In this document: positions 2,672 to 28,245 of the stretch, one piece after another
Layout of the letters: every line of letters begins with the position of its first letter
Position numbering within the stretch: the stretch's first letter is position 1
Source of the DNA: Stygiobacter sp. RIFOXYC2_FULL_38_25
Lineage (GTDB): Bacteria > Bacteroidota > Ignavibacteria > Ignavibacteriales > Melioribacteraceae
NCBI GenBank assembly: GCA_001803165.1
Contig: MHAZ01000002.1
Span: 104,263-168,262 of the forward strand
Direction: 5' to 3'
DNA length: 64,000 nucleotides
The notes under the pieces: model-generated
Told to the model about the DNA's origin: nothing
Database searches by the model: none
What the model saw: the letters and a program-made list of their open reading frames with translations, nothing else
Program-made: the position numbers and the translations under genes

Positions 2672-3463
2672 CTAAAAATCCTTTCTGGAAAAAGTTTTAA
2701 GACCAAAGAACAAAGGAACGACGCACCAAACTGCTAACGAAATAATCGAAACAATCATTCCAAATCCGCTTCCCAAAAACTGATTGAACACAGCTCCGGT
2801 GTAGCCCATTAATGCGGAAATATCAAATCTTAGGATAACAAGAAGACGCGAAAGATCAATCGGGTTGAGTATTGTAAATATTATGGAAGGAATCTCCAGA
2901 GGATATTCTCGTAACACTTGAAGCGTAATTAAGATTAGTCCATCGTAAAGAGCCGTAAAAAAGAGCCATAAAAATATCGCGAGCCCAAGTCCTTTCATTT
3001 TGTTTTCATTCATAGTCGCAATTAGAAAAGAAACGGATACGAAAATAAAAGTCTCAAACACGCCGCCAACGAACAAGTTTAACAACACAGTTCCGGCTTC
3101 TTTGAAGTTCCGAATGTAAATCAGAATTGGTAATCCAGTACCAAGAAGAAAACTTAAAACCATTGGTACCGATAGACCTAAATACAATCCGACAAAGAGT
3201 GTTTTCCGATTTATCGGCTGAGATAATATCAGAATGATGTAATCTCTGTTGTTGTACAAATAGATTGTACCGAAGATTAAACTTGTCAGAGGGATTACAA
3301 TCATATTAATGTTCAGCAAGCTTAGAATAACTTTGTTGGAATCATTGGTAAAGGAAAGCAAACCATAGCTTAAAACAACAAAGAACAAAGTATAAACAAC
3401 GAGCCACTTGCTTCTGAAGGTATCGTGCACTTGGTATTTTATTATTGATTTAAGCGCGTTCAT
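2672..3463 (-). CDS. nosY: NosY-like ABC-2 type permease
   Basis: This 263-residue integral membrane protein has about six hydrophobic segments (for example around residues 20-40, 45-67, 92-118, 132-150 and 235-255) and the layout of the NosY/ABC-2 permease family. With the ATPase encoded just upstream (stop and start overlap by four bases) it should form the NosFY transporter. In nitrous oxide reducers this complex works with NosD in supplying sulfur for CuZ/copper centre assembly in the periplasm. It is the last gene of the minus-strand nos operon. It converges on the plus-strand propeller gene with only 28 bases between, and no clear terminator hairpin is seen there. Confidence 0.85.
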   Translation of the reverse strand: MNALKSIIKYQVHDTFRSKWLVVYTLFFVVLSYGLLSFTNDSNKVILSLLNINMIVIPLTSLIFGTIYLYNNRDYIILILSQPINRKTLFVGLYLGLSVPMVLSFLLGTGLPILIYIRNFKEAGTVLLNLFVGGVFETFIFVSVSFLIATMNENKMKGLGLAIFLWLFFTALYDGLILITLQVLREYPLEIPSIIFTILNPIDLSRLLVILRFDISALMGYTGAVFNQFLGSGFGMIVSIISLAVWCVVPLFFGLKTFSRKDF

Positions 3464-4170
3464 ACTTTTTCTCCAACCATTAGATTGGCAATGGCTCTCT
3501 CTAAGTTTTTTTCACCAGTCATCGCAATCAATTCATCCTTTTTCCCGGCGAAGCAAATACTTCCTTCGAGAAGAAAAATAATTTCTTCAGCAAGTTCTTC
3601 AAGTTCGCTCATGATATGAGAAGTGAACAAAATTGTTTTGCCGGCATTCTTTTCTTTTAAAATTTTATCTTTTAGAATACTGCTTGAAACCGGATCGAGT
3701 CCCGCACTTGGTTCATCCAGAATTAGAATTTGCGGATTGAAAAGGAATGCAATCACTGCGTTTAATTTTTGTTTGGTTCCGCCGGATAATGTTTTTATCC
3801 GCTTTTCAAATTCCTTTTCGAGATTAAGCAAATGGATTAACTCATCATCAAATTTTTCATTTACGTTTCGTATCTCTTTGAGTAAAGTCAATACCTCTTT
3901 CACACTAAGGTTTTCCGGGAAACTTGCAATCTGCGGCATGTAACCAATTTTTGCTCTGTAATTATATATTCCATTCAACTTTGTACCGTCAACAAATATG
4001 TTCCCGGATGTAGGCTTTACTAACCCGAGAACAGATTTAATAAAAGTTGTTTTACCTGAGCCGTTTGGTCCAACAATGTATGTGAGAGTATTCGACTTAA
4101 TCTCAACATCCAAACCCTTCAACGCTTCAAGCGCGCCATACTTCTTATATAGTTTTTCTGCTCTAATCAT
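3460..4170 (-). CDS. nosF: NosF-like ABC transporter ATPase
   Basis: This 236-residue ABC ATPase has all key motifs: Walker A GPNGSGKT (residues 34-41), a Q-loop near MPQ (78-80), signature LSGGTKQK (128-135) and Walker B ILILDEP (148-154). It sits in the nos cluster between nosD and nosY with four-base overlaps on both sides, which implies translational coupling. It should energise the NosY channel for CuZ-site maturation of nitrous oxide reductase. The family assignment as an ABC ATPase is certain; the NosF role rests on context. Confidence 0.9.
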   Translation of the reverse strand: MIRAEKLYKKYGALEALKGLDVEIKSNTLTYIVGPNGSGKTTFIKSVLGLVKPTSGNIFVDGTKLNGIYNYRAKIGYMPQIASFPENLSVKEVLTLLKEIRNVNEKFDDELIHLLNLEKEFEKRIKTLSGGTKQKLNAVIAFLFNPQILILDEPSAGLDPVSSSILKDKILKEKNAGKTILFTSHIMSELEELAEEIIFLLEGSICFAGKKDELIAMTGEKNLERAIANLMVGEKV

Positions 4171-5408
4171 TTTATAAAACTCATTTCCGGATATTTATCC
4201 ACTAATGTTTCCGGCGTTAGAACCGGGAATACTTTTTCGGCAGTATTTAGAAGTTCTACAAAAAAACTTCTGAGAAGCAAAAGTGTTGGTCGGTTCTTTT
4301 CAACCAACAATGAAAATAATTTTACCGGATGATGCGGGGTCTCGCCAATTCCGTCTTTGTTCAAATCGTAACCTTGATAATCCGACCAATAGTTGTTGGC
4401 AAAGGTATTGTAGTTTCTTGTGTTGTTTGTTGTAACCTCGAACGAATTGCCTACAAAGTTATTCTTCATAAAATTATTATCCATAGAATTTGCCATTAAA
4501 CGAATTGCCCAGCCGTTATTTTCAAAAAGATTATGCTCGACGATGTTTCGGTTGCTTCCTTCTAAATAAATACCGCAAGTATTTCTAACAAACTTGTTGT
4601 TGTAGATTTTTCCATCGGTAATTTCTTTTAGCAGTAATCCAAAAGAAGCTCCGCCCCAATTATTGATAAATAAGTTGCTGTGCATCTGAACGTGATGTGT
4701 AAACATTACTGCAACACCGGCGCTGTTATGTTGAAAAGTGTTGTGTGAGTATTCACAGCTGTCGGAAAACATGAAATGAAGTCCGTAACGAAGATTTCTT
4801 GTGCTGAAATTATTTTTTATCAAGCTTCTTCTAACAAATTCCAAATAAATACCGTCTCGGTGGCCGTCTATTGTATTTCCCTCAATAATAATATTCTTGC
4901 AATACCAGAGATGAATTCCGTTACCGGAATAAGTTTGTGCTTTCTGCGATGCAATAATTTTGTTGTTCCGGATTTTGCAATTCCAACTTTTACCGAGATA
5001 AATTCCAAAGAAATTATTACTGAACTCATTATTCTCAATAGCGCAGCCGGTAACACTATCTAATTTCACGGCGGCGTTATCTTTTACAAAGCTTGCACCA
5101 GCGTCGGCAAAGTGAATCCCGCTTACAGCAACATTGTTAGCCCTTACGGTAAGTATTCTTTCTTTTCTACTGCCGCTGATTGTCGGTAAGTCAATTCCCA
5201 GAAGCGAAATTTGTTTGGTTACAACTAAATTGCTCTCAGGATAAAATCCGCCGGTGATTCTTATTACATCTCCATCTTCGCAGAGAGCTAACGCTTGTTT
5301 AATAGATTTTATCTTTTCGTTTTTCCCAACGGTTATAGTTTTAGGAAATATGAAATCAGTTGACAGAAAAAGAAATAAGATTAAAACGCTATTTCGAATT
5401 CTTGACAT
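4167..5408 (-). CDS. nosD: NosD, periplasmic right-handed beta-helix maturation factor
   Basis: The protein has an N-terminal signal segment (MSRIRNSVLILFLFLSTDFIFP) and then many N-x-F/I repeats of the parallel beta-helix (CASH/NosD) fold, such as NNEFSNNFFGIYLGKS and NLFENNGWAIRL, ending in the SDYQGYDLNKDGIGETPH region that is typical of NosD. NosD cooperates with NosFY in assembling the CuZ centre of NosZ. I use the ATG at 5408; another ATG at 5420 would lengthen the overlap with nosL. The stop overlaps the nosF start by four bases. Length (413 residues) is normal for the family. Confidence 0.9.
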   Translation of the reverse strand: MSRIRNSVLILFLFLSTDFIFPKTITVGKNEKIKSIKQALALCEDGDVIRITGGFYPESNLVVTKQISLLGIDLPTISGSRKERILTVRANNVAVSGIHFADAGASFVKDNAAVKLDSVTGCAIENNEFSNNFFGIYLGKSWNCKIRNNKIIASQKAQTYSGNGIHLWYCKNIIIEGNTIDGHRDGIYLEFVRRSLIKNNFSTRNLRYGLHFMFSDSCEYSHNTFQHNSAGVAVMFTHHVQMHSNLFINNWGGASFGLLLKEITDGKIYNNKFVRNTCGIYLEGSNRNIVEHNLFENNGWAIRLMANSMDNNFMKNNFVGNSFEVTTNNTRNYNTFANNYWSDYQGYDLNKDGIGETPHHPVKLFSLLVEKNRPTLLLLRSFFVELLNTAEKVFPVLTPETLVDKYPEMSFIK

Positions 5409-5832
5409 AATTAAGCACATCTTTCCAATTCATTTTTTGTCCGCTCATTTCTGCGAATACTTTTTCCATATCACTCTTGTTTTTGAACCCGCCGATATTC
5501 ATACTCATCGGGCTTTCCATTTTAGGGCTAACAATATAAAAAGCCGTTGCCGCATCAATTAATGAATTAGGATTTGCGTAATCGCTAATCCATAAAGTTT
5601 CAGCTGTAAATCCGCGGCTTACCGAAACATAATCTGCCAGGCATTCAATCGAATCAAACTTGTAAACTTTTCCTTTATCCGTAACTAACTCGCTTCCAAA
5701 TTTTGGATCGGTAATCATCATCATGCAGTGAGCGCATTCATCCTTATTATAATTGATTGGCTGCGGCTCTTTGCTGCAATTGACGAGCAAGAGTGAGCCT
5801 ATAAGGAATAAAATTATTCTGTATGCCGTCAA
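5389..5832 (-). CDS. nosL: NosL copper-binding lipoprotein
   Basis: A lipoprotein signal with the lipid cysteine at C19 (LLLVNC) precedes the NosL core: DECAHCMMMI (C33, C36 and the following Met cluster), KFGSELVTDKGKVYKFDSIECL. NosL is an outer-leaflet copper(I) chaperone thought to deliver copper to NosZ. The start overlaps the stop of the upstream membrane protein by four bases and the 3' end overlaps nosD by 20 bases, so the genes are tightly coupled. Length (147 residues) is slightly short but usual for Bacteroidota-type NosL. Confidence 0.9.
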   Translation of the reverse strand: MTAYRIILFLIGSLLLVNCSKEPQPINYNKDECAHCMMMITDPKFGSELVTDKGKVYKFDSIECLADYVSVSRGFTAETLWISDYANPNSLIDAATAFYIVSPKMESPMSMNIGGFKNKSDMEKVFAEMSGQKMNWKDVLNYVKNSK

Positions 5833-6410
5833 TTCTTTTTCTCCTTCTTAAAATCAAGATATGTTGATGTAGCTGCAAGAAGTATTGAAAATGTAATTAT
5901 GTATGTTCCAATTCCGGGCACTGATTTCGCGTTCATATTAAGTAATTGTTTTGTTCCAAGCAGTGGTGGTTGATAAGTCATTCCGGGTATTTTTATTGGT
6001 GCTTTTGGATTTAGGTTATGTCCGTAATCGTAACCCCATAAATAGTAATCGTAAAGACCGTAGCTTAAAACCAGCAGCAATAACACAAGCCAGAATGCCT
6101 TCAGCCATTTTCTGTTGAATAATCCGAAGGCAATTCCCAGCACAGAAAAAATTACGATTATGTATGGCATTACTTTTAGTTCTGGAATAGATTCCGGATG
6201 AATAGTTTTCATTCCAATGTAATGGTTAAGATTATTAATTAGATTTAGGTCACCTTCTTTTTGTCCGGTTATTTGATTCACCCAAATTCTTAACCCCAAG
6301 CCTTCGGGATATTGAGGCGCCCGTAAATCAATATTCCAAATTGGAAAAAGAAAAGCTCCCCAAAGAATTACTGCTGCAATAATCATTAACCACTTCGATA
6401 AATTTTTCAT
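5829..6410 (-). CDS. NosB-like membrane protein of the nos cluster
   Basis: A 193-residue integral membrane protein with four likely helices (about 6-26, 86-106, 108-130 and 166-186). I prefer the ATG at 6410 (MKNLSKWLMIIAAVILWGAF): it follows the nosZ stop and has a GAAGAG ribosome-binding sequence. An ATG at 6473 would overlap nosZ by 35 bases. The position right behind nosZ is where clade II clusters carry the membrane protein NosB, so I infer the same role; the sequence itself shows no catalytic motif. The conserved-looking loop YLWGYDYGHNLNPKAPIKIPGM may be functional. Confidence 0.65.
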   Translation of the reverse strand: MKNLSKWLMIIAAVILWGAFLFPIWNIDLRAPQYPEGLGLRIWVNQITGQKEGDLNLINNLNHYIGMKTIHPESIPELKVMPYIIVIFSVLGIAFGLFNRKWLKAFWLVLLLLVLSYGLYDYYLWGYDYGHNLNPKAPIKIPGMTYQPPLLGTKQLLNMNAKSVPGIGTYIITFSILLAATSTYLDFKKEKKN

Positions 6411-6438
6411 CTCTTCACCCGGAATCTCTTCCCTTACA

Positions 6439-8382
6439 TTAATTAAAAGACAGCTTAACAGAACTTCCCGCATCCGATACTCTTACATATCCTTGCATTT
6501 CTTGATGAAGCGCGGAACAAAAATCTGTACAATAGAAAGGATAGATTCCGGCTTTCGTTGGAGTCCAAACAATTGTTTTGGTTTGTCCAGGCATAACTAA
6601 CAGTTCCGAGTTGTTCAATCCCTTTACAGTAAATCCATGTGGAATATCCCAATCTTGTTCAAGATTTGTTACATGCCAGTAAACCTTATCGCCAACTCTA
6701 ACACCTTCAATATTATCCGGTTTGAAGTGACTTCTTGTTGCGCTGATATAAACATGAACTTCATTTCCGTTTCGTTCAACTCGCGCATCCTTTTCGCCGC
6801 GTACCGCATATTTGTTTTTGTTGTTTTCAATTGGATAAATCTTTTTAGAATTCTTCATTAACAAATCTGCCGGAATTGCTTGAGCGTAATGAGGCTCTCC
6901 AATTGTCGGGAAATCTAACAAGAGCTGCATCTTATCGCCGCTTATATCATAAAGCTGTGCGGATTGTGTTATTTCCGGTCCGGTTGGTAAGTATCTATCC
7001 TTTGTAATCTTGTTGAGAGCAACAACATATTTACCGTGCGGCTTCCTGCTGTCTCCGCCAGGAATCATTAAGTGTCCAATCGAATAATAGGTTGGAATTC
7101 TATCTACAACTTCCCAAGTTCCAATTTTCCATTTCACAATTTCAGATGATAAAAATGCCGATGTGTAAGCATAGCCTTTGCCGTCAAATTCTGTGTGTAA
7201 TGGTCCCAAGCCCGGATTTTCAACTTCACCGGCAACTACCGCATCATATTTCAGAATTGGAATTCCGCCAAACTCGCCGTCAAATTTTTTCTCTTCAATT
7301 GCCTTAATCATTTTTTCAAATGAATGAACCGGAATTACAGTAGAAAGTTTTCCGCCGGCAACTATGTATTCGCCGCTCGGATCAACATCAACTCCGTGAG
7401 GTGATTTTGGTGTCGGTATGTAATAAATCATTCCGGGGCAATTTTTAGGATCAAGAACCAGCACATCATTCATCTTTTTTGATTCAGCGGAATGTGTTTC
7501 TTCATTATACAAGTTGTTATAATATTCGGCAGATACTTTTTGCGCTTTGCCTGCTTTCACATATTCTTCTGCCTTTTTCCAGTTTACTGCAGCAATAAAG
7601 TCTTTATCGTTTTGCGATGCGTTGATTTCTAAAAGCGCATTTGCTTGTTCGCTATTGTACGAGGTAAAAAATGCCCAGCCATGAGAAGGTCCTTTACCTG
7701 CATGAGCTAAATCATAATTCAGCCCCGGAACCAAAATTTGAAAAGCTACTTTCATATCGCCGCTCTTGTTATCAACAGAAATAAAAGAAACGGTTCCTTT
7801 AAAGTTTTCTTTGTAAGATGCAATGGGAACATCTTTATTCGGAATTGGCAAGCTGAATCTTGTTGAAGCAACTACATATTCTGTGTTTTCAGTTAAGAAT
7901 GGTGAACCATGATTACCGGCTGAATTTGGAATTTCAATTATCTCTGCGGTTTCAAATGTGCTTAGATCTATTCTGGCAACTCTTGGTGTGTTGTTTCCAT
8001 TTATGAATATCCATCTTCCGTCTTGCTCTCCATTAGTTTTTGATAGCACAGGATGGTGAGCGTCATCCCATGGAATAAATCCGTAAGATGTCATTAACAT
8101 TCCTTTAGTCTCTTCGGAATATCCGTACCCGGTTTCGGGGTTTTGAGAAAACACACTTATATTTTTAAACATTCTCCCGGATGGTAAACCATAAACAGAC
8201 AACTGTCCGTTAAATCCACCCGACATGAACGCATAGAATTCATCGTAGCTTCCCGGTTTAACATATGTACGTTTAGCTGCGTCTTCGGCAGAGGCAGATT
8301 CTCCCGATCCCGAACAGTTGAATAAAATTATTCCAACAATTACTACCGCAAATAAGCTAACGATTAGTTTGATGTGCTTCAT
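6439..8382 (-). CDS. nosZ: Nitrous oxide reductase, clade II type
   Basis: NosZ reduces N2O to N2 in the periplasm with a CuZ and a CuA centre. The C-terminal cupredoxin domain has the CuA ligands H582 and the CTDFCSALHQEM motif (C618, C622, H626, M629). The N-terminal propeller shows DDAHHPVLSKTNGEQDGRW, HAGKGPSHGW, SPHGVDVDPSGEY, GPLHTEFD, KPHGK and EPHYAQA, the expected CuZ histidines. The signal is a plain hydrophobic Sec-type segment without twin arginine, which marks clade II; a cysteine (ILFNC) follows, so lipid anchoring is possible but its lipobox is atypical. A strong AAAGGAGAAAG ribosome site precedes the ATG. It is the third gene of the operon. Confidence 0.97.
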   Translation of the reverse strand: MKHIKLIVSLFAVVIVGIILFNCSGSGESASAEDAAKRTYVKPGSYDEFYAFMSGGFNGQLSVYGLPSGRMFKNISVFSQNPETGYGYSEETKGMLMTSYGFIPWDDAHHPVLSKTNGEQDGRWIFINGNNTPRVARIDLSTFETAEIIEIPNSAGNHGSPFLTENTEYVVASTRFSLPIPNKDVPIASYKENFKGTVSFISVDNKSGDMKVAFQILVPGLNYDLAHAGKGPSHGWAFFTSYNSEQANALLEINASQNDKDFIAAVNWKKAEEYVKAGKAQKVSAEYYNNLYNEETHSAESKKMNDVLVLDPKNCPGMIYYIPTPKSPHGVDVDPSGEYIVAGGKLSTVIPVHSFEKMIKAIEEKKFDGEFGGIPILKYDAVVAGEVENPGLGPLHTEFDGKGYAYTSAFLSSEIVKWKIGTWEVVDRIPTYYSIGHLMIPGGDSRKPHGKYVVALNKITKDRYLPTGPEITQSAQLYDISGDKMQLLLDFPTIGEPHYAQAIPADLLMKNSKKIYPIENNKNKYAVRGEKDARVERNGNEVHVYISATRSHFKPDNIEGVRVGDKVYWHVTNLEQDWDIPHGFTVKGLNNSELLVMPGQTKTIVWTPTKAGIYPFYCTDFCSALHQEMQGYVRVSDAGSSVKLSFN

Positions 8383-8408
8383 CTTCTTTCTCCTTTTGAT
8401 GAATTAAT

Positions 8409-8879
8409 TTATTTTTCTTCAGAGCGGAAGTATTCTAGAATGTTCATTGCATCTTCTTGAGTTACATTTTGAAAGGTCATCTTGGTTGCATGGAGAGCCA
8501 CCAATTTCTTTGCTTCAGGATGTTTGTTAGCCATTTCATCCGGATTCAGAATATTGTTTACTATGTATTCCGGCGTTCTTCTTTTGGTTACATTCCTTAA
8601 AGCCGGTCCGGTATATTTTTCATCGAACTTGTGGCATTGGCTGCATTTGGACTCAAATAACTTTTTACCGGCTGCTACTTTAATTGCATCCAATTGACCG
8701 AGATTCATTTTTTCTTTTATTGGACCAATTCCGTTTTCTAATTCGAAAACAGAAATTCCAAAAATCTTCGCCATTTTTTCTTGTTTTGATGTCGCCTCAT
8801 CTTTTTTACTTTCACCCCCGCCGCAAGCGATTACCAATAGAAAGCTTGCAAGTGCCAAATAAGGAATTAGTCTCTTCAT
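8409..8879 (-). CDS. Mono-haem cytochrome c lipoprotein, likely electron donor to NosZ
   Basis: A lipoprotein signal (LASFLLVIACGGGES, lipid cysteine C19) is followed by a class I cytochrome c domain with CSQCH at residues 79-83 and a probable axial methionine M134 in HATKMTF. Clade II nos clusters normally encode such cytochromes, which pass electrons from the quinol pool to NosZ; that role is inferred from context. The gene lies three bases behind ric and 26 bases ahead of nosZ, so all are probably one transcript. No nosR or nosX is seen here. Confidence 0.9.
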   Translation of the reverse strand: MKRLIPYLALASFLLVIACGGGESKKDEATSKQEKMAKIFGISVFELENGIGPIKEKMNLGQLDAIKVAAGKKLFESKCSQCHKFDEKYTGPALRNVTKRRTPEYIVNNILNPDEMANKHPEAKKLVALHATKMTFQNVTQEDAMNILEYFRSEEK

Positions 8880-22424: not shown

Positions 22425-22451
22425 AAGTTTGTAAAATATTTTCACAAACTT
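22425..22451. terminator. AT-rich hairpin between convergent genes
   Basis: AAGTTTGT and ACAAACTT (22425-22432, 22444-22451) enclose the self-complementary AAAATATTTT. It may end transcription from both sides. Confidence 0.45.
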
Positions 22452-23868
22452 ATTCGAAACGAACAGATTGGAGAGAAATAATAAATATTGAGCCCTGTGG
22501 ATAATTGTCTTGTACTTGAATTTCACCATTCATTGAATTAATAATGGACTTTGCTAAACTAAGACCTAAACCATAGCCATTTAGCCCTAAATCTTCTGCA
22601 GAACTTGAACGGAAAAACCGGTCGAATATTTTCGGTTTATCTTCCGATTTAATTCCTATTCCAAGATCAATTACCTTTATAACGCAATTGTATTTATCAT
22701 TTGTTGCTGTAACGGTAACCGGCGAGTTATCGGAATACTTAAGTGCATTGTCTATAATATTACCAAGCGCTATTACAAAGTGATCTACATTACCTTTCAA
22801 GTATATCTCTCTGTCAACAATAAACTTCACTTGATTTGTTTGTAATGAGGGCTTAATTAAGTTGTCTATTGATGTATGAAGATTGAAAACAGCATTGCTG
22901 TTAACACGAGCTTTATCAACACGTGCGAGAATTAGAAGCGACTTAATAATCTGTGTCATTCTATCTGATTGCTCTTTAAGCGTGTTGACAGACGCTTTTA
23001 ATTCCGCGTCTAAATTAGTGTGCCTTATCAGAGATTCGAGTTCAGTATTAATAACTGTTAAAGGAGTAACTAATTGATGCGAGGCATTATCTGAGAAAGC
23101 AGAAATTTGCTGAATCTGATTTTCCAATCTGCCAAATAAACTATTCAGGGTGGACTTTAATTTGCTTAGTTCATCATTTGGATCGGAATCAAGAGTAAGG
23201 CGTTCTTTCAAATTTGCTGCTGTGATTCGGTTTGCGGTTTCTATAATAGCAGTTATTGGCTGAAATGTTTTTTTCGAAATAACAACGCTTATTAATACAA
23301 TTATTAACAAAACAAAGGGAAGCAAAAGTATATTGTAGTATAAAATATTTTTAGCCGCCGCTTCAATTCTTAATCTTCTTGCGGAAAGTTGTAGATAACC
23401 GATGTGTTTTCCTTCCTCGTTGAATAACTTTCTATATCCAGTACGAATCACTTCTTTTTTCGTATCGGTATTTATAAAATACTCTTTAGATGAAAACTCA
23501 GGATATGATAACGCAATTAGGCTGAAATGTTTTATGTTTTCGCTTTTAACGAATACTTGCCCTACTTTAGAATAAATCTGCATGAAAAATGGATTGTCAT
23601 TTACTTTAACCAGGTCAGATTCTTGAAATTCGCTGGGACGTAAAATTTCAACAGAATTATTTTTAATTCTAAATGCTGAAGAAATGTGTTCAATTTCATG
23701 GCTTATTTTAGCATCGAGAACCGCGGTAAGTTGATATGTAATTACAAAGTAGAGTAACACGTTAAATATCAACATAAAAATGATAAACGCAGTAGCAATC
23801 ATAAAAGCGTTGCGTTTTACTGTTTTTGACAGGTTAATGTTTAAGGATTTCATCAACAAAGAAAACAT
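22450..23868 (-). CDS. Sensor histidine kinase (HAMP-HisKA-HATPase)
   Basis: Numbering from an in-frame GTG at 23877: two membrane helices (about 24-48 and 181-201) bracket a periplasmic domain of some 130 residues; a HAMP domain, HisKA with H267 (FSDNASHQLVTPL) and a HATPase domain (DNALKYSDN, DLGIGI, GYGLGLSLAKSI) follow. ATGs at 23868 and 23853 are both plausible starts; I use the first. The gene overlaps the end of its response regulator gene. The pair lies head to head with the cytochrome cluster starting at 24715, which suggests, but does not prove, redox-linked control. Confidence 0.92.
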   Translation of the reverse strand: MFSLLMKSLNINLSKTVKRNAFMIATAFIIFMLIFNVLLYFVITYQLTAVLDAKISHEIEHISSAFRIKNNSVEILRPSEFQESDLVKVNDNPFFMQIYSKVGQVFVKSENIKHFSLIALSYPEFSSKEYFINTDTKKEVIRTGYRKLFNEEGKHIGYLQLSARRLRIEAAAKNILYYNILLLPFVLLIIVLISVVISKKTFQPITAIIETANRITAANLKERLTLDSDPNDELSKLKSTLNSLFGRLENQIQQISAFSDNASHQLVTPLTVINTELESLIRHTNLDAELKASVNTLKEQSDRMTQIIKSLLILARVDKARVNSNAVFNLHTSIDNLIKPSLQTNQVKFIVDREIYLKGNVDHFVIALGNIIDNALKYSDNSPVTVTATNDKYNCVIKVIDLGIGIKSEDKPKIFDRFFRSSSAEDLGLNGYGLGLSLAKSIINSMNGEIQVQDNYPQGSIFIISLQSVRFE

Positions 23869-24517
23869 ACCCTTCACCGTAAATTGTCCTTATAAATTTT
23901 TTATGTGTATCACTTTCAAGCTTACGTCGTAAATTCCTAATTGTTACTTCTACAATGTTAGAAAGAGGAGAGCATTTAATTCCCCAAGCATTTTCGCATA
24001 TTTGATCTTTATTTACAATTGTGTTTTTGTTCGTCAAAAAAAACTTGAGCAGTTCGAATTCTTTTTGACTAATCTTAATTGTTTCATTTGGTTTAATAAG
24101 CGTATGGTCAACTAAATTAAGAGTATAATTGCTAAAAGATAGTTCAGTTGTAGTCGAATTAAATCTTCTTAGAACCGCATGAATTCTAGCAAAAAGTTCA
24201 TCAAAAGAAAAAGGTTTTGTAATATAATCATCTGCGCCGGCATTAAGAGCCTCAACTTTGTTCGAAATATCACTCAATGCAGTAAGAAGAATAATCGGAG
24301 TTTTTATCCCGCGCGCGCGCAATGCTTTACATGCGTCGTAGCCAGAAAGTTTAGGCATTCTCCAATCCAGAAGAATCACATCAAAAACGATTTTTTCAAC
24401 TGCCGAAAGGACAGATTCACCATCCGTTACTATCATTGGATGAAAGCCTTCTTCTAAAAACCGTTTTTTCAGTGAAGCGGCAATGGGTTTCTCATCTTCA
24501 GCAATAAGTATCTGCAA
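23834..24517 (-). CDS. OmpR-family response regulator
   Basis: The receiver has acidic residues E7-D8, phospho-acceptor D51 (VILLDWRMPKLSG) and K101 (YITKPFSFDEL); the C-terminal winged helix (FELLKFFLTNKNTIVNKDQICENAWG ... IVEVTIRNLRRKLE ... IRTIYGEGYVF) binds DNA. Length 227 residues is standard. It is the first gene of the regulator-kinase pair and faces the haem-porin gene across a 197-base region holding a perfect 16-bp palindrome. Confidence 0.93.
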   Translation of the reverse strand: MQILIAEDEKPIAASLKKRFLEEGFHPMIVTDGESVLSAVEKIVFDVILLDWRMPKLSGYDACKALRARGIKTPIILLTALSDISNKVEALNAGADDYITKPFSFDELFARIHAVLRRFNSTTTELSFSNYTLNLVDHTLIKPNETIKISQKEFELLKFFLTNKNTIVNKDQICENAWGIKCSPLSNIVEVTIRNLRRKLESDTHKKFIRTIYGEGYVFFVDEILKH

Positions 24518-24576: not shown

Positions 24577-24592
24577 ATGAAAAATTTTTCAT
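24577..24592. promoter_or_regulatory. Perfect 16-bp palindrome in divergent promoter region
   Basis: ATGAAAAATTTTTCAT lies 60 bases from the regulator start and 122 bases from the haem-porin gene. It is a candidate operator for one or both directions; no bound protein can be named. Confidence 0.4.
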
Positions 24593-24714: not shown

Positions 24715-25989
24715 ATGAAGAAGTCATTTCTAATTACGGTCTTTACAGTATTTGCAATTTGCGGTCTGTCAAATACACTTTTTGCTACAAGTCAGTGGGC
24801 AAGAAAAACAGGGCTGTCATGCAATTCATGCCATATTGTTTTTCCACGTCTTAATTCTTTTGGTGAAGAATATCTGAAAAATGGATACCAATTAATGAAT
24901 ACATATAAGAAAGATTACAAAGAAGCCTACCCGGTTGATGCCGGCGGAGTTTTATTAGATGAAGTATCCAACATATTCGGTTTCAGGTTGAATATGACGC
25001 CAATCGAACTTGATACAAAATCATTTCTGAAAGATGCAGGAGAAACAAAAACATCTAAGTGGACAATTGGAAATGCTGTTTGGTTACAAGCTTTTGTCGC
25101 TGGTTCAATCTATAAAGATATTTCGTTTTTCTCTGAATTAGAGTATGCAAAGAGCGCGTTCAAGTTCAATTGGTTCTACTTCAATTTCACGAATATTCTT
25201 AATACTCCATACGTAAACTTCCAGGTTGGTAATATTTCGCCGATGGAGTTTGCATCATACCCAAATCGGTTGCCGCAGCTACCAAACTTAAAGGGAGAAG
25301 TATTTCTCTTGAAGGCATCAAATGGTAAGGGTGAATCGTCAATGGATATGTCCAGCGCAAGACCTGGTATCCAATATTTTGGTAAATACGATTGGGCAAC
25401 TATATATGCTGGTATTTCACCAGGAGTATCGGCAGCAAGTGTTAATCAATATATGAACTATTGGGGAGGACTTGTTTTGAAATTACCGGAGAATGTAATA
25501 AAAGGATTTGACGGTAGTTCATTTACTCTGCATTATTACACGGGAACGGACACAAAGTACACTGGAACAGAAGCAGCCGGCACACAGATACCTCAGTTAA
25601 GTAATTCATTCACACGGTTTTCGCCACAAATAAATGTTCGTTATAATGACGCATGGGATATTCAAGCTGCTTATGTTACAGGAACTGATGATAATTATTC
25701 TTTAGTAACCGCCAAGAAGGATTTTAAGTATAGCGGTGTTGCAGTAGAAGCCGGTTTTATGCCTAGCGAAATTTGGCATTTGGGATTGCATTATGATAAT
25801 TATTCTTCTGAAGATAAAGTAGCTGCCACAGGTAAACCGGTATTGGATTTTCAGAGAATTGTACCAAGTGTAACTTATGTGATAAACCAAAACATAAGAT
25901 TTACGGTCTATTATGAAAAGAATCTTACTGATATTGATGAAAACTTAAAAGTGGATAAAACTTACTTAAACGTTAGAGTAATGTTTTAA
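24715..25989 (+). CDS. Outer membrane beta-barrel with N-terminal c-type haem site
   Basis: A signal peptide (ending LFATS) is followed by a single haem motif CNSCH at residues 36-40 in the context GLSCNSCHIVFPRLNSFGEEYLKNGY, then about 370 residues of alternating amphipathic strands with aromatic turns, ending with a terminal strand LNVRVMF typical of an outer membrane barrel. This arrangement resembles haem-containing porin-like proteins linked with electron transfer across the outer membrane. It heads an operon-like row with a soluble cytochrome (28-base gap) and, after a terminator, a ten-haem T9SS cytochrome. Exact function is inferred. Confidence 0.75.
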   Translation: MKKSFLITVFTVFAICGLSNTLFATSQWARKTGLSCNSCHIVFPRLNSFGEEYLKNGYQLMNTYKKDYKEAYPVDAGGVLLDEVSNIFGFRLNMTPIELDTKSFLKDAGETKTSKWTIGNAVWLQAFVAGSIYKDISFFSELEYAKSAFKFNWFYFNFTNILNTPYVNFQVGNISPMEFASYPNRLPQLPNLKGEVFLLKASNGKGESSMDMSSARPGIQYFGKYDWATIYAGISPGVSAASVNQYMNYWGGLVLKLPENVIKGFDGSSFTLHYYTGTDTKYTGTEAAGTQIPQLSNSFTRFSPQINVRYNDAWDIQAAYVTGTDDNYSLVTAKKDFKYSGVAVEAGFMPSEIWHLGLHYDNYSSEDKVAATGKPVLDFQRIVPSVTYVINQNIRFTVYYEKNLTDIDENLKVDKTYLNVRVMF

Positions 25990-26017: not shown

Positions 26018-26377
26018 ATGAAAAAAGCGATGTTTACACTCTTAATAGTTCTTGCTGGATTAACATCAGCAAATGCTCAAACGTCGGAAGATCCAAAAGG
26101 CAAGAGTATATTTAAAGAGAATAAATGCGTTGGTTGCCATGCAATTGAAACGCAAGGATTTCTGAAAAAGGGAAAATCTAGTGCGCCCGATCTTTCAAAT
26201 GTTGGAAATAAATTAACTACTGATTTCCTTAAGAAATATCTTAAGAAAGAAGAAGTACAAAATGATTTGAAGCATCCTGTCAGTTTTAAGGGTAACGATG
26301 AAGATTTTGCTGTTTTAACTGATTGGTTAGCAGCTTTGAAGAAACAAGAAGCAGCGGACACACTTAAGAGTAAATAA
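26018..26377 (+). CDS. Small periplasmic cytochrome c
   Basis: A cleavable signal (MKKAMFTLLIVLAGLTSANAQ) precedes one class I-like cytochrome domain with CVGCH at residues 37-41. After the haem site there is no clear axial methionine; the segment LKHPVSFKGNDEDF has a histidine instead, so bis-His ligation is possible. Length is 119 residues. It follows the haem-porin gene closely and ends at a strong terminator, so it probably shuttles electrons in the periplasm for that protein. Confidence 0.85.
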   Translation: MKKAMFTLLIVLAGLTSANAQTSEDPKGKSIFKENKCVGCHAIETQGFLKKGKSSAPDLSNVGNKLTTDFLKKYLKKEEVQNDLKHPVSFKGNDEDFAVLTDWLAALKKQEAADTLKSK

Positions 26378-26400
26378 TTTTCTTTACGTAGATTACTGGA

Positions 26401-26432
26401 AGCCGTTTCAATTAGTTGAAACGGCTTTTTTT
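26401..26432 (+). terminator. Rho-independent terminator
   Basis: A perfect 11-pair stem AGCCGTTTCAA / TTGAAACGGCT with loop TTAG and a T run closes the haem-porin/cytochrome unit. Confidence 0.93.
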
Positions 26433-26452: not shown

Positions 26453-26700
26453 TTTAAATCCGAATTGGGGAAAATATAAATGCCTTGCCATTAGCATGAA
26501 CTACTTAGTACTACCAACGTGTATTTACTATTAAGATGAAGACTTTTTAATTATTGTTAATTAGGTATTCATAGGTTCAGGAGATAAGTTTCGTAAGATA
26601 TAAAACGATAAACGCATCTTAATAAGAATCGTTGCTTTTATATTCATTCGGATAGAAAGTTCCACCCTAAATAGATATCCATGAATTATAGGAGACAAAT

Positions 26701-28245
26701 ATGGATCGTAAAGTAAAACTGTTTTTAGCCTTTTCTTTATTTTTAGCAGTGAATGTTTCTCTTTTGGGTCAGATTTCAAATAGTCAGTGTTACCTATGCC
26801 ATTCTAATTCATCATTGAAAAAGACAATTACCTTGGCTACTACTACAGAGTCTGTACCGCTTTATGTTGATTCAACAAAATTCAAATCCAGCAAGCATGC
26901 TAATTTGAAATGTGTAAACTGCCATACCGATATTACAACTTCAAATCTATTCAGTCACAAGTTGGAAAAATATTATGGCGGCTGGGCACGCTTTTCTGCA
27001 AAAGATGACAATGTAACAGCCGGGCAAGAGAAAACTCGTAATTACACTACTGTAGCATCAATGTCATGTAACCAGAATGGATGCCACACATCAAAATCTG
27101 CGTTTGACAAATCAACACACCGCCTTACATTCAAACAGAAGCACGCTTCATTACGCACAGTAAATGGTGAAAGTGTTGGCGAAGCATATGACAACAAAGA
27201 TTGCTACCGCTGTCATACGACTTGTTCAACTTGCCATTTCAAAACTGATATTAAGCAATATCAATCAGGTGATGTTCTTTCGATTTGGAACCAGCTACAA
27301 GCATCAGGTGATGGAGCTGAACCATTAAAGACACAATCCAATAACCTAACCCAGTATCAGATGGACTGGACTACAAATGTAGAATCACACACATTTCTAA
27401 CCGGCAATAATCTTAAAGCTAATAACGATGTATGCCAGACATGCCATATTGGATATTATAAGCCGCCAATGAATGGTTTCTTGTCACTTGAATCGCCTTA
27501 TCCAAAAGCTTACGGTACAAATATTAAAAGGCACCCTCAGGTGCAAGAAGGAATTCAAAGCGCTGTACATAAAAGCTTAAAATGCGCCGATTGCCATACC
27601 GGGGTTCATTCATACCCGGGAGATAGAAAGGCTGATTGGCAAACTGAAGGTGATGCAACATGCCAAAAATGTCATGAAAATCCAGCTCACGCAGGTTTTG
27701 CAAATTATTCTAAGCACACAACTGTTGATTGTATCTCGTGCCACTTTAGAGGATTTGTTAAGTCAACCGGACAGAACGGACATGATGTTTGGCGCATGGA
27801 AAATAAACCTACCGGGCGTGTACGACCGCTAGCGATGAAATACAATGAAGCTGTTAGCTGGTATCCACACAATATTGAAAAACCTAATAACAGTACATGC
27901 GCTGCAAAGTGTCATTACCAAGGTAATATTATAGGTGTGTCTGTTATTACTTCCGTAGAGGATATCGCTTCGATAATTCCGGCGAATTACTCCTTATCGC
28001 AGAACAGTCCTAACCCATTCAATCCGACAACTATAATTAAATTCGCATTACCTAAGGCATCAAGAGTTACCTTGAATGTTTACAGCATGACCGGAGAATT
28101 AGTAAAAACTTTGGTTAACAAAGAAATGGCTAACGGATGGCATGAAGTTACTTTTGAGGCGAGAGATTTAGCGAGCGGAGTTTATATTTATAGAATTCAA
28201 GCCGATCAATATAGTTACTCACGAAAGATGGTCTTGGTGAAATAA
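26701..28245 (+). CDS. Decahaem c-type cytochrome with T9SS sorting domain
   Basis: A signal peptide (MDRKVKLFLAFSLFLAVNVSLLGQ) is followed by ten candidate haem sites: eight CxxCH (cysteines 30, 71, 168, 175, 245, 295, 321, 344) plus CNQNGCH (123-129) and CAAKCH (400-405), the CX4CH and CX3CH variants known from some multihaem proteins. Residues 430-514 form a T9SS type A tail (SLSQNSPNPFNPTTIIKF, LNVYSMTGELVKTL, ASGVYIYRI, KMVLVK). The protein should therefore cross the outer membrane and act at the surface, probably in electron exchange with outside acceptors or donors. It follows the haem-porin and cytochrome c genes. Confidence 0.9.
   Translation: MDRKVKLFLAFSLFLAVNVSLLGQISNSQCYLCHSNSSLKKTITLATTTESVPLYVDSTKFKSSKHANLKCVNCHTDITTSNLFSHKLEKYYGGWARFSAKDDNVTAGQEKTRNYTTVASMSCNQNGCHTSKSAFDKSTHRLTFKQKHASLRTVNGESVGEAYDNKDCYRCHTTCSTCHFKTDIKQYQSGDVLSIWNQLQASGDGAEPLKTQSNNLTQYQMDWTTNVESHTFLTGNNLKANNDVCQTCHIGYYKPPMNGFLSLESPYPKAYGTNIKRHPQVQEGIQSAVHKSLKCADCHTGVHSYPGDRKADWQTEGDATCQKCHENPAHAGFANYSKHTTVDCISCHFRGFVKSTGQNGHDVWRMENKPTGRVRPLAMKYNEAVSWYPHNIEKPNNSTCAAKCHYQGNIIGVSVITSVEDIASIIPANYSLSQNSPNPFNPTTIIKFALPKASRVTLNVYSMTGELVKTLVNKEMANGWHEVTFEARDLASGVYIYRIQADQYSYSRKMVLVK

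Follow-up and report, generated by a model that had tools for sequence, protein, structure and literature searches.

The stretch of DNA examined here, 64,000 nucleotides from Stygiobacter sp. RIFOXYC2_FULL_38_25 (hereafter the window), encodes a protein that combines ten predicted haem sites with a C-terminal sorting domain of the type IX secretion system (T9SS). Extracellular cytochromes are usually treated as lipoproteins or as porin-bound wires. The question that this locus raises is whether a multihaem cytochrome is delivered to the cell surface by the T9SS and, if so, with which partners it would exchange electrons and how the set would be switched on. The gene and the parts of its product are the following:

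26701 to 28245, plus strand: decahaem c-type cytochrome with a C-terminal type A T9SS sorting domain (open reading frame, haem-site scan, Pfam, NCBIfam)
27067 to 27087, plus strand: CX4CH haem site 3, CNQNGCH, residues 123-129 (CX4CH in nine of ten proteins; CX2CH, as CINCH, in Stygiobacter electus)
27898 to 27915, plus strand: CX3CH haem site 10, CAAKCH, residues 400-405 (CX3CH in ten of ten proteins)
27997 to 28242, plus strand: T9SS sorting domain, approximately residues 433-514 (Pfam, NCBIfam, seven-strand model, fold matches including chains of T9SS cargo complexes)

The open reading frame runs from an ATG to a stop and corresponds to 514 amino acids. A motif scan located eight CX2CH sites, one CX4CH site and one CX3CH site, starting at residues 30, 71, 123, 168, 175, 245, 295, 321, 344 and 400 (CYLCH, CVNCH, CNQNGCH, CYRCH, CSTCH, CQTCH, CADCH, CQKCH, CISCH and CAAKCH, respectively), and all 20 cysteines of the protein lie inside these ten sites. 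A chance origin of the motifs was ruled out by 20,000 residue shuffles of the protein, which gave at most two motifs of any single class. The preliminary description of this DNA had claimed ten haem sites and a T9SS tail in one protein, two of the sites being non-standard and missed by usual haem-motif scans. The motif scan and the PF18962 and TIGR04183 matches given below bear this out; a scan restricted to CX2CH sees eight of the ten sites. The N-terminus is hydrophobic (model helix at residues 3-20) and, by reading only, contains no lipobox. When the protein was compared with Pfam and NCBIfam, the general Cytochrome_C7 profile was the sole haem profile above its cut-off and no enzyme-family haem profile reached that level; weak matches below cut-off were obtained to C554- and GSu-type multihaem families. 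A sequence search against solved structures gave no significant relative (best E 0.023), and the AlphaFold2 model of the haem domain, built without haem from ten sequences, is poor (mean pLDDT 39.8). Profile search of the window genome found three members of the cytochrome c assembly family PF01578 above cut-off. By its predicted haem sites and these assembly genes, the protein is classed as a c-type multihaem cytochrome.

Homologues were searched for in 294 genomes of the class (match threshold E<=1e-10). Ten genomes gave matches, eight of them full-length (the window genome and seven others, the latter with 54-73% identity to the window protein over the haem domain) and two partial, limited to some 75 residues (40-42% identity) of a different, 17-haem protein. 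A scan of named genomes yielded 11 loci, from Ignavibacteria or Bacteroidota, nine full-length (L087-L095) and two partial (L096, L097). As seven of those nine overlap the class-sample matches, the ten distinct full-length decahaems compared here are the window protein and L087-L095. Overall identity of the nine relatives to the window protein is 51-82%; all ten proteins have ten haem sites, a TIGR04183 tail match at E<=0.001 and an invariant PNPFNP in the tail. The CX3CH site is kept in every one of them and the CX4CH site in nine, site 3 of S. electus (CINCH) being two residues shorter than in the others; that the CX4CH and CX2CH spacings swap at one position supports site 3 being a genuine haem site. 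The ten proteins also share eleven invariant histidines beyond the motifs, a number sufficient for each haem to have a second axial ligand. Judged from this comparison, the combination of ten haems and tail, kept in all ten full-length proteins, is not a chance fusion. The distribution, as sampled, is rare and patchy: a search beyond the class, in a 395-genome sample of the phylum, gave three matches, all within the window's own order. The copy from the same genus (G280) is 54% identical to the window decahaem and that of G177, from another family of the class, 73%, identities which, taken without a gene tree, suggest transfer or differential loss.

At the C-terminus, PF18962 (Por_Secre_tail) matches with E 4.1e-9 and 37 bits (cut-off 27), and TIGR04183 with 36.3 bits (cut-off 23). 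The AlphaFold2 model of the tail contains seven strands between residues 431 and 512; the first (431-434) is of low confidence (pLDDT about 44), and mean pLDDT is 68-89 per block from residue 441 to 510. The type A C-terminal domain of T9SS cargo is described as a seven-stranded Ig-like sandwich (PMC11285876), and the modelled tail has this form. The 25 best PDB matches of the tail in a Foldseek comparison include the T9SS entries 8glk_D, 8gl6_D, 8gl8_D and 8qb1_A, interspersed with generic Ig-like domains; their status as cargo domains was taken from titles and chain lengths, and four matches in total, 8glk_D included, lie below E 0.001. The window genome encodes SprA (main piece 826 bits, 1031 with its in-frame neighbours, cut-off 200) and PorU (998 bits, cut-off 420), and the tail profile matches about 145 other places in it, so that the T9SS seems to be heavily used. 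The T9SS moves folded proteins through the very wide SprA pore, and export of a haem-loaded protein would therefore be possible. The decahaem thus resembles type A cargo of Bacteroidota in its PF18962/TIGR04183 tail, in the sandwich-like tail model and in the presence of SprA and PorU genes, and differs from it by carrying ten covalent-type haem sites; we know of no experimentally shown T9SS cargo with ten such sites. Export of the decahaem by the T9SS is, from these features, very likely.

The neighbourhood of the gene comprises the following further features:

22450 to 23877, minus strand: sensor histidine kinase adjoining the regulator (by reading)
23834 to 24517, minus strand: OmpR-type response regulator, candidate binder of the palindrome (by reading; identity comparison)
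24577 to 24592, no strand: palindrome ATGAAAAATTTTTCAT in the gap from the regulator gene to the divergent barrel gene (no other exact copy of the pattern in the 4.4-Mb genome)
24715 to 25989, plus strand: monohaem fused cytochrome-barrel, Cyc2-like with a deviating motif (ATSQWARKT...CNSCH...PRL) (open reading frame, motif, weak model)
26018 to 26377, plus strand: small class I monohaem cytochrome c, 28 bp past the barrel gene (PF00034)
26398 to 26429, plus strand: intrinsic-terminator-like hairpin between the cytochrome c and decahaem genes (terminator scan; folding)
26536 to 26551, no strand: degenerate copy of the palindrome (12/14) upstream of the decahaem gene (exact in the relatives L087, L092 and L095)

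A haem-bearing barrel and a soluble cytochrome had been described as encoded just before the decahaem, and both are there: the first has a single CNSCH in 424 amino acids, and the second matches PF00034 with E 1.4e-8. The barrel has no Pfam or NCBIfam match; its model consists mostly of beta strands (pLDDT 49), with porin-like fold matches of low confidence that include OprO. Cyc2, an iron oxidase, is a fused cytochrome-porin with the signature AXPXFAR[Q/K][T/Y] before CXXCH (PMC8406198). The window barrel is like it in the hydrophobic N-terminus, the single nearby CXXCH, the PXL four residues further on (CNSCHIVFPRL), a length over 365 residues and the porin-like fold matches. It departs from the strict signature, as ATSQWARKT replaces P by S and F by W, and against the 16 strands of the Cyc2 porin the model, at pLDDT 49, supports porin-like matches and not a strand number. 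We call the protein Cyc2-like, not Cyc2.

The hairpin at 26398-26429 has a 14-pair stem followed by a T tail and folds at -22 kcal/mol. The terminator scan gave five terminator-like sites versus 2.9 (sd 1.9) in shuffles, and is telling only by the strength of this one. A single operon of barrel, small cytochrome c and decahaem was rejected on the hairpin, which makes barrel plus cytochrome c, on the one hand, and decahaem, 323 bp past the small cytochrome gene, on the other, probably two transcription units. Similar hairpins lie between the cytochrome c and decahaem genes at L087 and L091. The three-gene set proposed in the preliminary description thus stands inasmuch as the genes adjoin and share an upstream palindrome, and has to be amended inasmuch as it forms two units, with a terminator between them, whose association is loose. 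To the right of the decahaem lies a gene for a C45-family hydrolase (NF040521 above cut-off), which looks unrelated to it. In G019 (L023:2-3679) genes for cytochrome c maturation (CcmC-, CcmE- and CcmF-like, by reading) sit just before the set of regulator, barrel and decahaem, and CcmC-, CcmE- and CcmF-like genes are likewise placed, by reading, in L085 (G211). Elsewhere in the window, at 2672-8879 on the minus strand, translations read as N2O reductase (nosZ-like), a monohaem cytochrome c, a nosD-like protein and ABC-type proteins.

How regularly barrel and decahaem occur together was determined in the 294 class genomes. The barrel matched in 21, strongly in nine (E below 1e-90) and weakly in 12 (E 1e-10 to 1e-15, 24-49% identity). 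A strong barrel and the decahaem coincide in four (G000, G019, G177 and G293), where they are separated by 0.4-2.4 kb; given eight decahaem and nine barrel genomes, this overlap has a hypergeometric p of 2.7e-5, relatedness ignored. Conversely, four of the eight decahaem genomes have no barrel orthologue and five of the nine strong-barrel genomes no decahaem. Barrel, small cytochrome c and decahaem were found all together at three of the loci read, namely the window, L087 and L091. In G177 no small cytochrome gene adjoins the barrel and decahaem genes; in G293 regulator and kinase sit between the two, and near the set there is a 136-residue one-haem frame, interrupted by the contig end, which has no Pfam match. 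At seven of the ten loci (window, L087, L088, L090, L091, L092 and L093) the decahaem has a regulator-kinase pair (by reading) in its vicinity; the stretch read at L094 contains no such pair, and at L089 and L095 the decahaem is close to a contig end.

A different partner is seen in G150 (L094), where the decahaem and an octahaem T9SS cytochrome stand beside a decahaem of the DmsE/MtrA family (TIGR03508) and a barrel of the MtrB/PioB family (TIGR03509/PF11854), both above cut-off, and beside a NapH-like protein with a weak match (63 of 213 bits). The protein had also been set apart from the Mtr/Omc porin-cytochrome routes. This contrast holds for the T9SS tail and for the lack of the MtrC/MtrF profile, PF22113 being absent from the Pfam matches of the window decahaem up to E 0.1; it is not strict, since the G150 orthologue adjoins MtrA/DmsE- and MtrB/PioB-family genes. 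With the MtrC/OmcA type of Shewanella the window decahaem shares ten haem sites and a predicted position on the outer face; it differs in having no MtrC/MtrF profile and, by reading, no lipobox, with a T9SS domain instead, and it matches none of the solved decahaems significantly. In the window genome a barrel search gave no clear MtrAB system: the one PF11854 match (25.1 bits, cut-off 23) covers positions 472-591 of 635 only, and the 14-kb stretch read around it contains no haem open reading frame.

The shared upstream palindrome, ATGAAAANNTTTTCAT, was first spotted by eye (window, L087, L091 and L085) and scored afterwards in 19 upstream regions, with 500 dinucleotide shuffles each. In the window it matches 14/14 at the barrel and 12/14 at the decahaem (p 0.012). 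At barrels it is complete also in L087 and L091 and 13/14 in L085; at decahaems it is complete in L087, L092 and L095 and 13/14 in L091; and it is complete at the octahaem T9SS cytochrome of G125. The sites of L095 and of the G125 octahaem are independent of the discovery, and the L092 site fragment had been seen previously. The palindrome is absent (at most 11/14, not above shuffles) from the decahaems of L088, L090, L093 and L094 and from the barrels of L088, L090, G269, G225 and G184, and from the L089 decahaem (8/14); at L093 (G125) it is the octahaem gene just upstream of the decahaem that carries it instead. An exact 13-mer common to both window promoters (AATAAGAATCGTT) was dropped as it is not conserved in relatives, and the palindrome replaced it.

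In seven genomes selected because they have the genes, the palindrome occurs in 16 exact copies and the backward-read pattern in one. Half of the 16 precede a barrel, decahaem, octahaem or the G592 multihaem cluster, one is found immediately after the small cytochrome gene of G211, and seven are elsewhere (five inside and one at the start of unrelated frames, and one near a contig end outside frames of at least 100 residues). The G211 copy is near a contig end; no decahaem match was obtained in that genome, and the subsequent bases are unlike those of G019, so that a hidden gene is not proposed there. In G592, an exact copy (L192:4623-4638) stands upstream of a cluster of HmcB/HybA-like, NrfD-like and 13-haem genes, which suggests that in G592 this regulon may extend to the inner-membrane side. 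At L092:5169-5184 a 13/14 copy precedes a small open reading frame and a 413-residue porin-like one (by reading); no monohaem barrel was seen at that locus. The response regulators of six palindrome loci share 51-88% mutual identity, and those of L088 and L090, decahaem loci without the palindrome, 34-40% with them. As regulator identity splits with presence of the palindrome, the palindrome is most likely the predicted site of this regulator; together with the hairpins at L087 and L091 it would indicate that the two units are kept apart and switched together.

The decahaem is not the sole tailed multihaem protein of the class as read from these genomes. The octahaem that adjoins it in G125 and G150 matches in 23 of the 294 genomes. 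Twenty octahaem loci were read (L113-L132), and a home-made profile trained on 11 tails matches in 17 of them, strongly in 13 (E below 1e-30) and weakly in four (E 1.6e-9 to 1.6e-12); the three loci without it are incomplete, L123 and L132 being interrupted by the locus end and L125 split. The G125 and G150 octahaems are both above the NCBIfam tail cut-off, and that of G150 is below the Pfam one. The window genome itself encodes, on contig C3, a 726-residue, nine-haem protein with a tail above cut-off (L163:2511-4688), and next to the octahaem of G158 there is another protein with nine haems, whose tail was recognised by regular expression. Outside the tail, the nine-haem protein of the window genome is weakly similar to the octahaem (E 5e-6), and the two may be distant relatives. 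Ten stretches of the window genome, picked by a Cytochrome_C7 or haem-protein match and hence not a census, contain 17 open reading frames with four or more CX2CH; one of them has the tail, and one of the 16 untailed frames is interrupted by the stretch end. The tail would accordingly be selective. No T9SS tail was found in a 1409-residue protein with 58 CXXCH motifs (L164:2738-6964, contig C19), whose frame overlaps the end of a 514-residue, 20-haem frame by about 20 bases. A further stretch (L026, C6:383000-400000) has frames with 13, 19, 16, 4 and 14 haem sites, a multihaem frame interrupted by the stretch end, iron-sulfur- and NrfD-like frames (by reading) and a 421-residue barrel-looking protein without family match.

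The mechanism that we propose is that the decahaem reaches the periplasm and gains its haem there, that the T9SS then takes it across the outer membrane to the cell surface by means of its C-terminal domain, and that at the surface it would relay electrons between extracellular donors or acceptors and a haem conduit of the outer membrane. The conduit would most likely be, in the window genome, the monohaem, Cyc2-like barrel together with the small cytochrome c of the periplasm and, in some relatives, a porin-cytochrome of the MtrAB type. Barrel unit and decahaem unit would form one regulon, probably run by the adjoining two-component system through ATGAAAANNTTTTCAT. A role of the decahaem in extracellular electron transfer is, from its sequence features, rather likely; for the joint reading, a T9SS-exported surface electron conduit with that role and a dedicated regulon, we estimate a probability of about 0.6. 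As to direction, the Cyc2-like barrel slightly favours electron uptake, for instance from Fe(II), with which the combination of barrel, small periplasmic cytochrome c and an N2O reductase operon (by reading) would fit; outward flow to minerals may occur.

The alternative that survives best, and which we nevertheless consider unlikely, is that an exported, electroactive decahaem acts alone or with the multihaem cluster of contig C6, its position beside the barrel being incidental. The barrel is missing from half of the eight decahaem genomes; at L097 two proteins follow the decahaem end, one of 440 residues without family match and one with 11 haems, and a pair from C6 shares 30% and 39% identity with them; and the exact palindrome of G592 precedes a cluster with HmcB/HybA-like, NrfD-like and 13-haem genes. 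Against it, barrel and decahaem adjoin and share the palindrome in the window, L087 and L091, and the region ahead of the C6 cluster in the window genome has no palindrome (best 10/14). Still less probable is a secreted multihaem enzyme, such as a reductase of a soluble nitrogen or sulfur oxyanion, which would use the T9SS and be no part of a wire. The sub-cut-off C554- and GSu-type matches and the N2O reductase operon read in the same window would suit such an enzyme; the eleven invariant extra histidines, which leave no obviously open haem site, the match above cut-off to general Cytochrome_C7 alone and the several loci that put the gene with outer-membrane haem conduits argue against it. 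That the protein is a periplasmic or inner-leaflet cytochrome with a tail that is vestigial or used by another process is the least likely of the three. In its favour, the roughly 145 other tail matches may mean that tails are easily acquired; against it, this tail is matched in all ten proteins at 51-82% identity with its PNPFNP invariant, SprA and PorU are encoded, and the 16 of 17 other multihaem frames read without a tail point to selectivity.

Among the papers listed from the openly licensed literature, judged by title and opening of the abstract, none deals with a T9SS-exported multihaem cytochrome, and none was found on Stygiobacter and cytochromes; subscription journals lie mostly outside this scope. 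Multihaem cytochromes and porin-cytochrome clusters are known from Ignavibacteria (PMC7399161), predicted secreted multihaem proteins from Bacteroidota (PMC11495043), and MHCscan detects multihaem clusters by signal peptide and haem count (PMC11475568). The predicted extracellular cytochromes of the first two papers resemble the set described here in their multihaem and porin-cytochrome clusters and in the extracellular electron transfer proposed for them; they differ from the decahaem in that the T9SS is not invoked, neither T9SS nor type IX being mentioned in the main text of either paper.

The T9SS-tailed decahaem of this subsurface bacterium suggests a route, so far little studied, by which electrical contacts may be put on the cell surface. 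Should the T9SS export haem-loaded decahaems, this would be an additional export route for electron conduits in a large phylum; haem scans limited to CX2CH would undercount such proteins, and searching for tail plus haem sites would be an easy means of finding electroactive Bacteroidota. The palindrome would offer a handle on the signal that switches the system on. Stygiobacter electus strain 09-Me carries the decahaem gene and the palindrome and, taken as a cultured isolate (the record carries no metagenome-bin label), would make the route testable. In a wider reading that we put forward tentatively, at somewhat less than even odds, the T9SS would be in Ignavibacteria a general means of delivering surface conduits, with tailed deca-, octa- and nonahaems pairing with exchangeable conduits (the Cyc2-like barrel, MtrAB or another porin-like and multihaem pair) and, in one lineage, being co-switched with them by a two-component system through ATGAAAANNTTTTCAT.
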